From Candidatus Latescibacterota bacterium (GTDB lineage Bacteria; JAAXHH01), in the NCBI GenBank assembly GCA_022822725.1, contig JAJEAN010000007.1:688382-752381 (forward strand): 64,000 nt of DNA, read 5' to 3'. The translations under genes and the position numbers were made by a program. Every line of letters begins with the position of its first letter. The first letter of the stretch is position 1. Below, piece by piece: positions 2,978 through 39,614 of the stretch. The notes under the pieces are model-generated. The model was given only the letters and a program-made list of their open reading frames with translations, was not told the DNA's origin and ran no database searches.

Positions 2978-4129
2978 TCAGAACCCGTGGGCGCACGCAT
3001 GTCCAAGCCCTACAGCTTCCACGCGCTCGTGAACGCGAAACCTCGCATCGCCGGGGAACACGACGACGAGCCGGTCAAGTTTCAGGTCGGTCAACGCCGT
3101 GTGCATGGAACGCGTCAACGACGGCGTACTGGATCGCTTGAACTCGAACCCGGTTCTTCGGCCGCCTTCCATGATCAGGAGGTCAAGTTCCGGCCCGCGA
3201 TGCGTAGCCCAGTAGTAACAGTCTTCCCATGCAGTGCCGGTGATCCGGACCACCTCCTGCATGGCGAAGCCCTCCCATGACGCACCTGACTTCGGATGCC
3301 CCATGAGATCTGCCTCGTCTTTCACACCCAACAGTGCGTGCAACAGCCCCGTGTCCGAAAGATACACCTTGGGTGCCTTGACCTGCCGCTTCTTCAGATT
3401 CTCGTACCAGGGCTGCATTCTGCGCGCGACCAACGCACCGACGAGCGTGTCGAAATAGGTATTCACCGTCGGCGCCGTGACACCAAGTGCGCGGCCGAGT
3501 TCGGCACCGTTCCAGTGATTTCCGTGATAGTGGGCAAGCATGGTCCAGAACCGACGCATGGAGGCGGCAGGAACAGATACCCCGAGTTGGGGCAGGTCTC
3601 GTTCCAGGAACGATCGGATGAACGCCGTCCGCCAGGTAAGGCTGTCCTCATCGTTCCTTGCGAGGAACGAGGGAGGAAACCCGCCGCGCAACCAGAGACG
3701 GTCCGTTTCGTCGGCTCCCGTTTCGTTCACCCGCAGAGGCGGAAGTTCATAATATGCGATCCTGCCGGCGAGCGATTCCGAAGATTGGCGAAGAAGAGAG
3801 GGTCCCGCACTGCCCAGGACCAGAAAACGGGCCGGTATACCGGGGCGGTCCGCGAGTACGCGCAGCAGACGGAAAAGTCCTTCATTGCGCTGAACCTCGT
3901 CAATGACGACCAGCCCGCGGAGTGGTTCCAGTGCAAGCTTGGGATCGGACAGCCGGGTCTCGTCCGTCGGATCCTCGAGATCAAAAAAGGTGACGGAACG
4001 CGATTCGGCTTCGATCAATTGCCGTGCCAGCGTAGTCTTGCCGACCTGCCGAGCTCCGATGAGACAGACCACGGGAAACTGGTTTAGCAGTTTGCCAATT
4101 GCGGAGAGATGTTGCGTACGAGGGATCAT
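2978..4129 (-). CDS. AAA ATPase with C-terminal DUF4143
   Basis: A 383-residue cytoplasmic ATPase of the AAA_14/DUF4143 type. Walker A is GARQVGKTT at residues 25-33 and Walker B is LVVIDEVQR near 75. The C-terminal half contains KVYLSDTGLLHALLG and a nuclease-like ELDLLIMEGGRRTGFEFK stretch typical of DUF4143. Such genes are patchily distributed, often lie beside toxin-antitoxin or mobile DNA, and have no firmly established function. The longest frame opens with TTG at 4138. I chose the ATG at 4129, giving MIPRTQHL, the usual family start. It lies immediately downstream of the methyltransferase pseudogene and higBA, consistent with an acquired patch. Confidence 0.85.
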   Translation of the reverse strand: MIPRTQHLSAIGKLLNQFPVVCLIGARQVGKTTLARQLIEAESRSVTFFDLEDPTDETRLSDPKLALEPLRGLVVIDEVQRNEGLFRLLRVLADRPGIPARFLVLGSAGPSLLRQSSESLAGRIAYYELPPLRVNETGADETDRLWLRGGFPPSFLARNDEDSLTWRTAFIRSFLERDLPQLGVSVPAASMRRFWTMLAHYHGNHWNGAELGRALGVTAPTVNTYFDTLVGALVARRMQPWYENLKKRQVKAPKVYLSDTGLLHALLGVKDEADLMGHPKSGASWEGFAMQEVVRITGTAWEDCYYWATHRGPELDLLIMEGGRRTGFEFKRSSTPSLTRSMHTALTDLKLDRLVVVFPGDARFRVHERVEAVGLGHACAHGF

Positions 4130-4194
4130 ACCGAACAATATATGTGAAAATCGAAAGTGGCGCTATTGATTTTCAACATTGGCCTTCGGTTTTC

Positions 4195-4301: not shown

Positions 4302-4634
4302 TTAAACACGTGCGGCTTCAATTGGCTTGATTCGGTCTCTGGCATGACGGCGTACTCGGGAACGAATTTCCTTGCCATTCATTACCAGTTCCCTGGATAA
4401 CTCATAGACTTTCTGAGCATTCATCCAGAACTCTGGTGTCTGGTCGAAATACTCACCTAAGGCGATGGCGGTTTCAGCGGTTACACCGCGCCGTTCATGA
4501 ACGATTTCATGAAGCCTCGTAGATGGTAGATCAATATCCCTCGCCAATCCATTGACTGTAAGGCCCATCTCCTGAATCTGCTCGAGAAGAAGCACCCCCG
4601 GGTGTGTCGCTATTCTGTTTGTAGGAACTGTCAT
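4302..4634 (-). CDS. higA: HigA-family antitoxin (XRE helix-turn-helix)
   Basis: A 110-residue DNA-binding antitoxin of the HigA/VapI type. It contains HPGVLLLEQIQEMGLTVNGL followed by LARDIDLPSTRLHEIVHERR, the XRE helix-turn-helix, then ITAETAIALGEYF-like text and TPEFWMNAQKVYEL, a family hallmark. It should neutralise HigB and repress the operon. GAGGT lies six bases before the ATG. higB ends 12 bases upstream, giving the toxin-first order usual for higBA. Its stop codon abuts the methyltransferase remnant. An inverted repeat at the higB promoter is its likely operator. Confidence 0.9.
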   Translation of the reverse strand: MTVPTNRIATHPGVLLLEQIQEMGLTVNGLARDIDLPSTRLHEIVHERRGVTAETAIALGEYFDQTPEFWMNAQKVYELSRELVMNGKEIRSRVRRHARDRIKPIEAARV

Positions 4635-4646
4635 AGTTTGACCTCT

Positions 4647-4931
4647 TCATTCGTAATGGTTGTTTAGTTCCACTTCAAAGGCATCTCCGTCCTTCCAGGT
4701 GAAACATATCCGCCATCCCCTGGAGACGCGAATACTGTAACGTTCCCCACGTAAACCTACCAGTCGTTCAAGTCTATTCCCCGTTGGTGTCTTGAGATCG
4801 CGGAGGACTTTTGCATTGTTGATCCGGTCCAACTTGATTCGCACACGATTGAGAAGATGATCAGGAACTGCCTTTACACGATTCCCCAGGAACACGTTCC
4901 TCGTCAGCTTATTGGCAAAAGATCGAATCAT
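4647..4931 (-). CDS. higB: HigB-type toxin (RelE/ParE superfamily)
   Basis: A 94-residue product beginning MIRSFANKLTRNVFLGN, with LERLVGLRGERYSIRV and GWRICFTWKDGDAFEVELN. This is the RelE/HigB fold of ribosome-dependent mRNA interferases. The open frame extends to a TTG at 4964, but HigB proteins normally begin at the MIRSF-like segment. The ATG at 4931 is therefore preferred; it has no Shine-Dalgarno. The predicted promoter places the transcript start almost on this ATG, so translation may be leaderless. Basic residues and the C-terminal NNHYE match the family. The pair is a type II toxin-antitoxin module. Confidence 0.88.
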   Translation of the reverse strand: MIRSFANKLTRNVFLGNRVKAVPDHLLNRVRIKLDRINNAKVLRDLKTPTGNRLERLVGLRGERYSIRVSRGWRICFTWKDGDAFEVELNNHYE

Positions 4932-4935
4932 GTCG

Positions 4936-4964
4936 AATCTATTACGAATAACGTAATACGTCAA
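4936..4964 (-). promoter_or_regulatory. higBA promoter with overlapping palindromic operator
   Basis: On the minus strand TTGACG (4964-4959), a 17-base spacer and TAGATT (4941-4936) form a promoter. Inside it ATTACG-N5-CGTAAT (4941-4957) is a perfect six-base-arm inverted repeat filling the spacer. An operator covering the core promoter is the known layout for HigA autorepression. The predicted start site coincides with the higB ATG. Confidence 0.6.
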
Positions 4965-5010: not shown

Positions 5011-5844
5011 TTAAGAAATCCTCGTCCACGCCCCGATATGCGGCGGGATGACCACGGGACGCTTCGACGCGACGATTTCATCCCGGACGCGCCGGGGTAT
5101 GGTCTCCACGTCCACTTCTTCCGCGGTGGCGATCCCGTAATGCTCCAGCAGGGGAAGCACGCTCTGGAAGGAATTCGCCACATAGGAGTATCCCGGCCAG
5201 TCGGCGGATCCTCCGATCAACAGGCCGGCATCCAGTGTCGGTTCGGGCAGCCCCGCGTCGACGAACACCCGGTAGAGTTCCATGCCCATGTTGCCGTTGG
5301 CCCCGGACCGCTCGAAAACCTCGACGACCCAGTCGCCGAGCTGACCCATGAGCGGGGTATCGGGGTGCTTGTAGGCCTCGGTGATCGTGAAATCGATCTC
5401 CTGGAACATGACGATGCCGCCGGAGCGCAGGCGGGGAATCAACTCCTTCAGGACCGCGACCGGATCGGGCAGATACATGAGCACCAGCCGGCCGACCAGG
5501 GCGTCGAAGTCGCCCCCGACGTCAAGCGTCTGTATGTCGCCGGCATGAAACGCCACGTTTTTGTGCCCCGCCTTCTCGACCCGTTCCCGCGCCGTTTCAA
5601 GGATGTCGGGATTCATGTCCACGCCCACGACTTCCCCCGTCGGCCCCACGAGTTCCGCGACGGCCAGCGCCACGTCACCGGCGCCGCTACCGATATCGAG
5701 TACCCGCATCCCGCTGCGGATACCGGCCGATTTCAGAAATCGTCTCGTGATCGGTTCGAAGAGCCGGGACTGTTCGATCAGGCGCTCCGTCTCTTCGTCA
5801 CTGCGTCCCGGGGTATATCGTCGTTCGCTGTGGTGGTCCGTCAT
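5011..5844 (-). CDS. Class I SAM-dependent methyltransferase (UbiE-like)
   Basis: A 277-residue soluble methyltransferase. SAM-binding motif I is VLDIGSGAGDVALAVAELVG near residues 48-67, followed by VVGVDMNPDILETARERV and HAGDIQTLDVGGDFDALVGR. The rest resembles ubiquinone/menaquinone-type methyltransferases, but the C-terminal substrate region gives no specific match. AGGAG lies about 12 bases before the ATG, and a 13-base tandem duplication lies in the leader. Its 3' end is duplicated downstream of higBA as a decayed remnant, so a tandem paralogue probably once existed. The substrate is unknown. Confidence 0.85.
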   Translation of the reverse strand: MTDHHSERRYTPGRSDEETERLIEQSRLFEPITRRFLKSAGIRSGMRVLDIGSGAGDVALAVAELVGPTGEVVGVDMNPDILETARERVEKAGHKNVAFHAGDIQTLDVGGDFDALVGRLVLMYLPDPVAVLKELIPRLRSGGIVMFQEIDFTITEAYKHPDTPLMGQLGDWVVEVFERSGANGNMGMELYRVFVDAGLPEPTLDAGLLIGGSADWPGYSYVANSFQSVLPLLEHYGIATAEEVDVETIPRRVRDEIVASKRPVVIPPHIGAWTRIS

Positions 5845-5872
5845 GTTCGGGATGGCTCCTTTCCGGACAATC

Positions 5873-5898
5873 TGTTGCTGTGTTCAGTTGCTGTGTTC
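5873..5898. repeat. 13-base tandem duplication upstream of the methyltransferase
   Basis: GTTGCTGTGTTC plus one base is present twice in direct succession at 5873-5885 and 5886-5898. The array is in the untranslated region before the methyltransferase ATG at 5844. No clear promoter could be read upstream. Confidence 0.7.
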
Positions 5899-6013
5899 GC
5901 GCTTTAATCTGTGCAGACATATTCAGAGTGGCACAAAGTGGGCAGCTAGACTACCCGCGTCAATCTCTTTAAGGCACTCCGGCACCCTTCACTGAAGCAT
6001 GAATCCGTCCACC

Positions 6014-6175
6014 CGCCTCACTCCTTCACCGCCCCCAGCGCCCCAGAATGATTCCCTGCACGACGTCCCGCCTCACTCCTGCACCGCCCTCAGCGCCCCA
6101 GCGTGATCCCCTGCACGACCACTCACCTCACTCCTTCACCGCCCCCAGCGTGATCCCCTGCACGAACTCCCGCTG
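6014..6175. repeat. Three 55-base units duplicating the 3' end of the permease gene
   Basis: The motif C[AG]CCTCACTCC begins at 6014, 6069 and 6124, an exact 55-base period. The third unit holds the stop codon and last codons (FVQGITLGAVKE) of the permease gene. The two downstream units are diverged copies of that gene end, including a stop-like TGA. The coding unit lacks eight bases present in the other two. The region 5845-6127 holds no other gene. Confidence 0.85.
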
Positions 6176-6952
6176 CATCGCGAGGAACAGGGCCATGATG
6201 GGGAGGATGGACAGCAGCGTACCGGCCATGAGCATGCCGTATTCCTGGCGGTAGACACCCACCAGGCTGGCCAGGCCGAGGGGCAGGGTGTACTTGGCGG
6301 CGTCCCGCAGGACGATCATGGGCCATAGGAACTCATTCCAGGCCCCCAGGAACCCGAATATGCTCAGGGCGCCCATGGCCGGCTTCACGGCCGGGATGAT
6401 GACGCGCCAGTAGATGCCGAACTCCGACGAACCGTCGATCCGCGCCTGGTCGATGAGGTCCGAGGGCACGCCGAGGATGAACTGGCGCATGAGGAACACG
6501 CCGAACCCGCTGGAAGCCAGGTAGGGCAGGATCACGCCCTGGTAGGTGTCGAGCCAGCCGAACTGGTACAACAGGGTGAACAGGGGCACCAGCACCAGGT
6601 GAAAGGGGATCATCATGGAGGCGAGGACGATGGCGAAGAGGACGCCGCGGCCCCGGAACGAGTACTTGGCGAAGGCGAACCCGCCCATGGTGGCGATAGC
6701 CAGGAGCAGCAGGGTGTGCGAAGTGGCCAGGAAGGTGCTGTTCACGACGTACTGGACGATGGGCATTTCCTGGAACAGCCGGGTGAAGTTCTCGAGCGTG
6801 GGATCCTGGGGAAGAAAGGTGGGCGGATAGGAGAAGATCTCGCCCGACGGCTTGAAGGAAGCGGATACCACCCAGAACAGCGGCGTCAGGACCAGGACGG
6901 TCAGCAAAATCAGGAGCACATAGGTGATGGTGGTGCGAACAGGGTTTCTCAT
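6128..6952 (-). CDS. Sugar ABC transporter permease (MalG/UgpE type)
   Basis: A 274-residue inner-membrane permease with six predicted membrane segments. The MalG-type EAA loop is near the C-terminus (LIDQARIDGSSEFGIYWRVI followed by IPAVKPAMGALSIFGFLGAW). Together with the preceding permease and binding protein it should import a sugar or glycoside. The open frame reaches a TTG at 6979. I chose the ATG at 6952 (MRNPVRTTITY), four bases after the stop of the upstream permease. No ATP-binding subunit is in the cluster, so a shared MsmX/UgpC-type ATPase encoded elsewhere is likely. The gene end is triplicated downstream. Confidence 0.9.
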   Translation of the reverse strand: MRNPVRTTITYVLLILLTVLVLTPLFWVVSASFKPSGEIFSYPPTFLPQDPTLENFTRLFQEMPIVQYVVNSTFLATSHTLLLLAIATMGGFAFAKYSFRGRGVLFAIVLASMMIPFHLVLVPLFTLLYQFGWLDTYQGVILPYLASSGFGVFLMRQFILGVPSDLIDQARIDGSSEFGIYWRVIIPAVKPAMGALSIFGFLGAWNEFLWPMIVLRDAAKYTLPLGLASLVGVYRQEYGMLMAGTLLSILPIMALFLAMQREFVQGITLGAVKE

Positions 6953-6956
6953 GAGG

Positions 6957-7808
6957 TCAGTTTTCCCTGAATACGCCAAATAACCGGACCTGGATGATGG
7001 AAATCACCCCGATGATCACGGCCAGGGCCCATCCGATCGTGGCCGCGTAACCAAGGTTGATGAATTCGAATCCGTGCTTGTACAGGTACATCACCATAGT
7101 CATGCTCGCGTTGCCGGGGCCGCCCTCCGTGAGCACGTAGGGCAGGTCGAAGAGCTGGAATGACCCGATCATGGAGGTGATGACCACGAAGGCAATCACG
7201 GGCTTCAAGGCAGGGATCGTTACGTGGACGAAGCTTTGCCAGGGTCCCGCGCCGTCCACCGCCGCCGCCTCGTAGAGCTCCTGGCGGATGCTCTGTAGCC
7301 CCGCGAGGAAGTAGACCATATTGAATCCCGCCCACCGCCATACGCCGGCCAGCACGAGGGCGGGCATGACCAGGTCCGGGTCCTGAAGCCACTGGATTTC
7401 GGAACCGAGGACCCGGTTCACCAGGCCGTAGCGCCGGTCGTACAAGAGGTAGAAGATCACGGCGATGAAGACGCCGGAGATCAGCACCGGCGAGAAGAAG
7501 GAAAGGCGGAACAGGTTCCGGCCCTTCAGGCGGGCATTGCTGAGGAGCAGTGCGAGGGCCAGGGCCACGGGCAGTTGCAGGAGCAGGCTGCCCGCGGCGA
7601 AATAGGCCGTGTTCCAGAGGGCGGTCCAGAAGAGCGGGTCCGCGATCAGCCGTTCGATGTTCTCGAGGCCCACGAAGGTCTGGTTCTGCATGCCCCGGAC
7701 ACTGTACGTGCTGAGACGGATCGAATCGAACAGGGGGTAGACCATGAAGACCCCGAAGAGCGCGAAGAAAGGCGCGAGGAAGAAGTAGGGGGCGTACCGG
7801 GGCTTCAT
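6957..7808 (-). CDS. Sugar ABC transporter permease (MalF/UgpA type)
   Basis: A 283-residue inner-membrane protein that starts KPRYAPYFFLAPFFALFGVF, a first membrane helix typical of MalF/UgpA-type permeases. The EAA loop is ELYEAAAVDGAGPWQSFVHV followed by TIPALKP, the site that contacts the ATPase. It pairs with the downstream MalG-type permease to form the channel. Its ATG overlaps the binding-protein stop codon by four bases (ATGA), indicating translational coupling. Specificity is not visible, but the family is confined to carbohydrates and related compounds. Confidence 0.9.
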   Translation of the reverse strand: MKPRYAPYFFLAPFFALFGVFMVYPLFDSIRLSTYSVRGMQNQTFVGLENIERLIADPLFWTALWNTAYFAAGSLLLQLPVALALALLLSNARLKGRNLFRLSFFSPVLISGVFIAVIFYLLYDRRYGLVNRVLGSEIQWLQDPDLVMPALVLAGVWRWAGFNMVYFLAGLQSIRQELYEAAAVDGAGPWQSFVHVTIPALKPVIAFVVITSMIGSFQLFDLPYVLTEGGPGNASMTMVMYLYKHGFEFINLGYAATIGWALAVIIGVISIIQVRLFGVFREN

Positions 7809-38325: not shown

Positions 38326-39540
38326 ATGTGGAAACCGATCAACAACTTCGCATACCGGATCTACTTTGCGTACCGGAACCGGATTTCGCGCCGCGCAAAC
38401 AGGCGATGGGCGTTCCAGGTTTCGAGACCGCCGGACCCCGGACCCAGACCCATTCTATACGTGGCATGGGGCCGGATCGGTGACGTGGTGCTGGCCACCG
38501 GGCACCTCAACCGGTTGCGGCGCTGGTTTCACCCCAGTCCGGTCTGGTTCCTGGGAAGGTCCCGCGTAAGGCCGCTCGTCGAACCGCACGTGGACGTCTT
38601 CCTGCCATTTCCAAAACCGGACGCACGCCCATCCGGGTCCCGTGAATCGACCGCGCCGCTCGAAGAGATCGCGAACCGGTCGTTCCGGTGCGTCATCGCA
38701 GACATACATACGTTCTACGGCGGACTCTTCGCCCTGGATGCCGTGCTTGCCGCCGTCCGGGCGGACCGCAAGTTCGTCTACGAAGGATACCACCTCGGCC
38801 AGGACCTGGCGCCGGAACGGCCCTACCCGGCCGGGTACGAGGTCGTGCCGAAGTACGAGGAACGGGATGGCGTGGGCAAAGAGGACGTCCCGAGCCATTT
38901 ACTGCATCACAACGCCCATTACATCGGCAACGTGCTGGGGCTCTGTGGTGTCGAACCGGACGAGGAGGACGCGTGGCGGCCGGAACTGGATCATGTCGGA
39001 TCGGGAACCGACGCATGCCGCCGGTTCGGGATCGAACCCGGGAAGTACGTGGCATGGCAACCCTCAAGCGACAACCGGAGGAAGGACTACCCGCCGGCGC
39101 GTTGGGCGGAGACGATCGCCGCGTTCCCCGATTTGCCGTTTGTCGCGCTGGCCGAACCCGGCGGGGCCGACGAAGTGAACCGGACTGCGCCACCCGGCGT
39201 GCGCGTTATCGAAACGGATTTGACCGGGGCGATGGCGTTGATCCGGGAGGCGCGCCTGTTTGTCGGACTGGACTCGGGACTGAGCCATATCTCGTCGGTG
39301 ATGGGAACGCCGACGGTGTGTGTCTGCCCGGACAGCCACCTCGGGTACTTCTTCCCCTATCCGGAGAGCTACGGTTTTGCGAATCTGCACACCGTAGCAC
39401 ATCCGGACTACCTGTCGTGCCGGGGCTGTTTCATGACATGCCGCCACGAACCCCTCACGTCGACGGTCACCCGGGGCGCCCTCTGCCTACGCACGTTGCC
39501 TTCCCGGCTGGTCATCGAGGCCATCCGGACCGCTTTATAG
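38326..39540 (+). CDS. Family 9 glycosyltransferase (heptosyltransferase-like)
   Basis: A 404-residue GT-B enzyme. The N-terminal domain has ILYVAWGRIGDVVLATGHLN near residue 43, the acceptor-side motif of heptosyltransferases. The donor side has LFVGLDSGLSHISSVMGTPT near 310, followed by VCVCPDSHLG. The C-terminus has CRGCFMTCRHEP, a cysteine cluster that may bind metal. It should add a heptose or related sugar to lipopolysaccharide core or another surface glycan at the inner membrane. No other LPS gene is adjacent. Its last six codons are duplicated just downstream. Confidence 0.88.
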   Translation: MWKPINNFAYRIYFAYRNRISRRANRRWAFQVSRPPDPGPRPILYVAWGRIGDVVLATGHLNRLRRWFHPSPVWFLGRSRVRPLVEPHVDVFLPFPKPDARPSGSRESTAPLEEIANRSFRCVIADIHTFYGGLFALDAVLAAVRADRKFVYEGYHLGQDLAPERPYPAGYEVVPKYEERDGVGKEDVPSHLLHHNAHYIGNVLGLCGVEPDEEDAWRPELDHVGSGTDACRRFGIEPGKYVAWQPSSDNRRKDYPPARWAETIAAFPDLPFVALAEPGGADEVNRTAPPGVRVIETDLTGAMALIREARLFVGLDSGLSHISSVMGTPTVCVCPDSHLGYFFPYPESYGFANLHTVAHPDYLSCRGCFMTCRHEPLTSTVTRGALCLRTLPSRLVIEAIRTAL

Positions 39541-39614
39541 CTTCCTGCCGCGTCACAGTTCGGCGGATATCCGGACCGCTTTATGGCTTCCTGCCGCATC
39601 ACAGTTCGGCGGCC
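39523..39614. repeat. 46-base tandem duplication across two convergent gene ends
   Basis: ATCCGGACCGCTTTAT[AG]G begins at 39523 and 39569. Each 46-base unit also carries TTCCTGCCGC[GA]TCACAGTT, then CGGCGG. Unit 1 holds the glycosyltransferase stop codon on the plus strand; unit 2 holds the hydrolase stop codon on the minus strand. Each unit thus contains a copy of both gene ends. Confidence 0.92.

Follow-up and report, generated by a model that had tools for sequence, protein, structure and literature searches.

A three-unit tandem array behind an ABC-transporter permease gene: a fairly young gene-end minisatellite, most likely neutral

Behind an ABC-transporter permease gene lie two extra copies of its own end, stop codon included, raising the question of how such copies arise, whether they alter the protein and whether they serve a function. 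The array lies at positions 6009-6165 of the 64,000-nucleotide stretch of DNA analysed here (the window), and its genus is Latescibacterota-like and, by some isolate names, probably sponge-associated. An initial annotation had placed a triplicated gene end with a 55-base period at 6014-6175, close to these limits, with the stop codon in every copy and an eight-base difference in the coding one, and all of these features were recovered. TRF called a period of 55 at 6009-6150 (score 221), and a repeat search gave three copies with start-to-start spacings of 55 and 55. Among 500 dinucleotide-preserving shuffles of window positions 5401-6800 (1400 bases), one reached a score of 50 at a period of at least 20 and the maximum was 63, so the head-to-tail copies are more alike than chance would make them.

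All three units are on the minus strand. Unit 1, the coding copy (47 nt, 6119-6165), contains the final codons of the gene with their TGA stop (6128-6130), while the non-coding units 2 (55 nt, 6064-6118) and 3 (55 nt, 6009-6063), delimited by repeat search and alignment, carry their TGA triplets at 6073-6075 and 6018-6020, with successive stops 55 bases apart. Pairwise, the units show 5 to 7 differences at aligned sites, and the coding one is in addition 8 bases shorter, reading ATCACGCTGGGGGCGGTG where units 2 and 3 are longer; the bases that it lacks (GGGCGCTG as aligned) are found in both other copies, at 6091-6098 and 6036-6043. On alignment, this difference looks like a small tandem duplication of CGCTGGGG, nested within the unit; in the window, substitutions would have obscured it in units 2 and 3, neither of which has an exact doubled 8-mer. 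CGCTGGGG occurs twice in the extra copy of a related genome (G003) and once in the window's coding unit.

The permease gene (6128-6979, minus strand, from the ORF list) encodes an inner-membrane protein belonging to Pfam family PF00528 (BPD_transp_1; E 1.2e-16, 61.4 bits against a cut-off of 26.4). It is 283 codons long from a TTG, with an ATG at the tenth codon as the alternative start, and upstream of it on the same strand lie the genes of a solute-binding protein and another permease. The array occupies the gap before the next gene downstream, a methyltransferase (5011-5844, minus strand, from the ORF list and Pfam). A plasmid search with positions 5880-6300 returned three Deinococcus records, which matched from query base 245 on only, that is, in the coding part. 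Elsewhere in the window, a HigB-like toxin gene (PF05015, 4647-4964) stands beside a small gene without a Pfam match (4302-4634), in our reading a type II toxin-antitoxin pair (4302-4964), and an ATPase gene with AAA_14 and DUF4143 domains is found at 2978-4138.

Orthologues of the permease gene were matched at E <=1e-150 in 11 of the 12 genus genomes, the window's own included. Only weaker relatives (best E 3.1e-52) were found in the remaining genome, G004 (completeness 90 percent, 520 contigs), which may lack the gene or have it in an unassembled part. Counted from the window's TTG position, each of the 11 orthologues is 283 codons long and ends in MQREFVQGITLGAVKE, followed by TGA, TAA or TAG. 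The C-terminus is thus unaffected by copy number, contrary to the suggestion of the initial annotation that the protein could be extended or truncated if the frame shifts; because a tandem duplication across the stop does not disturb the first copy or its stop, the protein becomes neither longer nor shorter.

Copy number itself varies between species, the relatives' collections consisting of one genome per species. Two extra copies are present in the window's own genome and one each in G003 and G005 (unit letters were checked in these three), with none in G009, G001, G002, G006, G007, G008, G010 and G011. In a tree of 11 rows and 2965 columns, the window's genome, G003, G005 and G009 grouped together (100/100), and the array comprises 3, 2, 2 and 1 units across four species of one clade, a variation typical of minisatellites. 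The same three units in all relatives, the pattern that would have spoken against spread from the coding end, were looked for across the orthologues and were absent. As no extra copies occur in G009 or in seven more distant members of the genus, the comparison of 3' ends supports the coding copy as ancestral and the others as additions outward into the gap (0, 1, 1 and 2 in the close species), which is what had been proposed from the window.

The history within the clade is less simple. The same tree placed G009 with the window's genome and G003 (94/91) and left G005 outside, so that a single gain of the extra copy would require a later loss in G009. Grouping the window's genome, G003 and G005 without G009 was unrejected (AU p 0.176). 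The 8-base insert is at the same place in these three genomes, suggesting a single origin, in which case G009 has lost its copy or the tree is in error. The genus genomes with named records are metagenome assemblies, in which short-read assembly could have collapsed a copy, and this concern is greatest for the single unit of G009 (87 percent complete, about 400 contigs, gene end 323 bases from a contig end).

How the first copy may have arisen is indicated by G009 itself, where GCGGGAG within the gene recurs imperfectly as GCGGGGAG beyond the stop, in direct orientation and with starts exactly 47 bases apart. This distance equals the length of the coding unit, and slippage between the two would yield an exact 47-base unit. 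It is very probable that the array is a neutral tandem duplication of the gene end by replication slippage (or short-homology recombination), with a further copy gained in the window's species. In the ancestor of the four-species clade, slippage between GCGGGAG and GCGGGGAG would have doubled the gene's final codons together with the stop and the first part of the gap; the new copy would then have gained 8 bases through the nested duplication of CGCTGGGG, and the resulting 55-base unit would have been doubled again in the window's species, while G009 would lack an extra copy through loss or as a branch that never had one. The order of these events, slippage as the process and the absence of function are what we infer from the comparison.

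The sequences of the copies fit little or no constraint on the extra ones. Across 38 aligned bases, the four extra copies (two from the window, one each from G003 and G005) depart from the consensus at 11 of 152 sites, and the four coding copies (from the window, G003, G005 and G009) at 1 of 152 (Fisher p 0.005, a guide only since the copies share history). The array is best described as an ordinary, fairly young gene-end minisatellite, most likely without function. Counting against this description, the window sequence at 5985-6180 folds better than its shuffles, none of the 200 equalling it (z -2.9). Such a fold, directly behind a permease gene with a further permease gene and one for a solute-binding protein ahead of it on the same strand, would suit a functional 3' untranslated element, that is, an RNA-protecting or terminating hairpin or a G-rich structure whose extra copies adjust expression. 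However, a scan of 5800-6250 found neither promoter- nor terminator-like sites, Rfam gave zero matches in the window at gathering scores, the extra copy is missing in 8 of the 10 other orthologues, and differences are more numerous in the extra copies than in the coding ones. A functional element consequently appears improbable.

Two other origins for the copies are still harder to credit. In unit length and place, the array resembles the MIRU of the senX3-regX3 gap, as described in an excerpt of PMC4213456, and the copies could in principle have been left by a small mobile repeat of the dispersed MIRU or REP type that had entered at the stop codon. However, a search of the window's own genome with the unit found one locus only, the next best matches being 20 and 26 bases long at E 0.085, and the unit is the gene's own end, the coding part of which is present in 11 of 11 orthologues. 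Insertion of a mobile repeat is thus very unlikely and close to refuted. That the assembler made the copies has a similarly slight chance of being correct: metagenome assembly of the named genus records leaves room for such an artefact, but 5 to 7 aligned sites separate the units from one another, the coding copy lacks 8 bases besides, and two other species (G003 and G005) bear 55-base copies with substitutions of their own. Neutral duplication of the gene end remains the preferred reading.

Tandem arrays are abundant in this genus beyond the permease locus. In 1.2 Mb of the window's own genome, 153 arrays had a period of at least 20 and 68 a period of at least 30 (57 per Mb). At the latter limit, G005 and G008 had 12 and 10 arrays in 400 kb each (30 and 25 per Mb), compared with none in 400 kb of G027 and 1 in 320 kb of G044 (0 and 3 per Mb), two unrelated controls that are few in number and of which G027 is lower in G+C (0.54, against 0.60 in G044 and 0.62 in the window's genome). 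The 68 arrays comprised 38 in genes, 18 across a stop, 4 across a start, 1 across both and 7 between genes. Periods divisible by three accounted for 37 of the 38 arrays in genes versus 5 of the 18 across stops, a pattern that would be expected if duplications arise everywhere and selection leaves only harmless ones.

Many of these arrays also differ in length between species. Both flanks were found in G005 for 51 of 57 arrays (period of at least 20) from 400 kb of the window's genome; 6 had the same length within 1 base and 45 did not, some of the latter including other insertions or unaligned flank, and 35 were longer in the window's genome, a direction favoured by picking the arrays there. 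Ten of the 51 differed by one unit within 5 percent. One further array of the window, at 39523-39612, has two copies of a 46-base unit (95 percent matches) that straddle the stops of two gene calls, and its interval is 30 bases shorter in G005.

Whether arrays outside genes favour stop codons was assessed by comparing the number straddling a stop with random placement, using gene calls from a simple codon-usage script rather than a standard gene finder; starts, taken from the longest open frames and unreliable, were unused. At a period of at least 20, the first 0.8 Mb of the window's genome gave 15 against 11.4 expected (fraction of simulations at least as high 0.147, not significant). The period limit of 30 was set after this result was seen and was then tried on other stretches: the 0.8 Mb on which it was chosen gave 13 against 4.95, a fresh 0.4 Mb of the same genome 5 against 1.94 (0.031), G005, where part of the loci are shared by descent, 6 against 1.77 (0.002) and G008 1 against 0.69 (0.534). 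With a period of at least 20, the corresponding values were 13 against 5.35 in the fresh 0.4 Mb (0 of 1000 simulations), 10 against 4.52 in G005 (0.008) and 6 against 3.40 in G008 (0.095). An excess at stops is therefore seen in the window's genome and G005 in most comparisons, made stronger by the latter counts, and is not significant in G008.

Repair genes were considered as a possible cause of the many repeats, using profile searches in 11 of the 12 genus genomes (G000-G010, with G011 left out). MutL, RecJ and RecA each exceeded their cut-offs in all 11 genomes and MutS in 9, with two pieces in G010 and one partial match in G004 falling under the cut-off. Loss of MutS, MutL, RecJ or RecA was rejected as the cause, as these genes are mostly or always present. 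For SbcD, none of the 11 genomes had a match over the NCBIfam cut-off (one weak match lay below it, in G006), and all four genomes from other genera of the family (G012, G013) and order (G014, G015) did, as did 8 of 14 named control genomes. The array-poor controls G027 and G044 had matches under the cut-off only and none at all, respectively; because these two have few arrays yet also lack SbcD over the cut-off, its absence is not sufficient. Lack of the SbcCD nuclease may contribute, though insufficient alone, and is offered as a lead only.

Taken alone, the array leaves the protein unchanged and is most likely one product of slippage. The four close species nevertheless provide a natural series (1, 2, 2 and 3 units) of a gap growing from the gene's own end, and the genus's set of arrays, of more interest than the single array in the window, marks out a lineage in which the rate of duplication could be measured. 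A tentative and somewhat doubtful extension is that this genus makes or keeps short tandem duplications unusually often, with gene ends as the places where those of any length survive and stops seeding new non-coding DNA.

Among the papers listed by literature searches, none dealt with the array or with tandem repeats of Latescibacterota, and its comparison is with repeats described from other bacteria. MIRU elements are a dispersed family whose ends overlap stop codons. Unlike these, the unit in the window is confined to one place in its own genome, where it forms no MIRU-like family, and derives from the adjacent gene. Arrays of 77- and 53-bp MIRU units nevertheless lie behind a gene in the senX3-regX3 gap (excerpt of PMC4213456), and replication slippage has been blamed for small variable segments between short repeats (excerpt of PMC2884548). 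In being a short head-to-tail array at one locus with a copy number that differs among close relatives, the array resembles bacterial intergenic minisatellites or VNTRs; it departs from the usual ones in that its unit holds the last codons and stop of a gene and in that the variation documented here is between species rather than strains.
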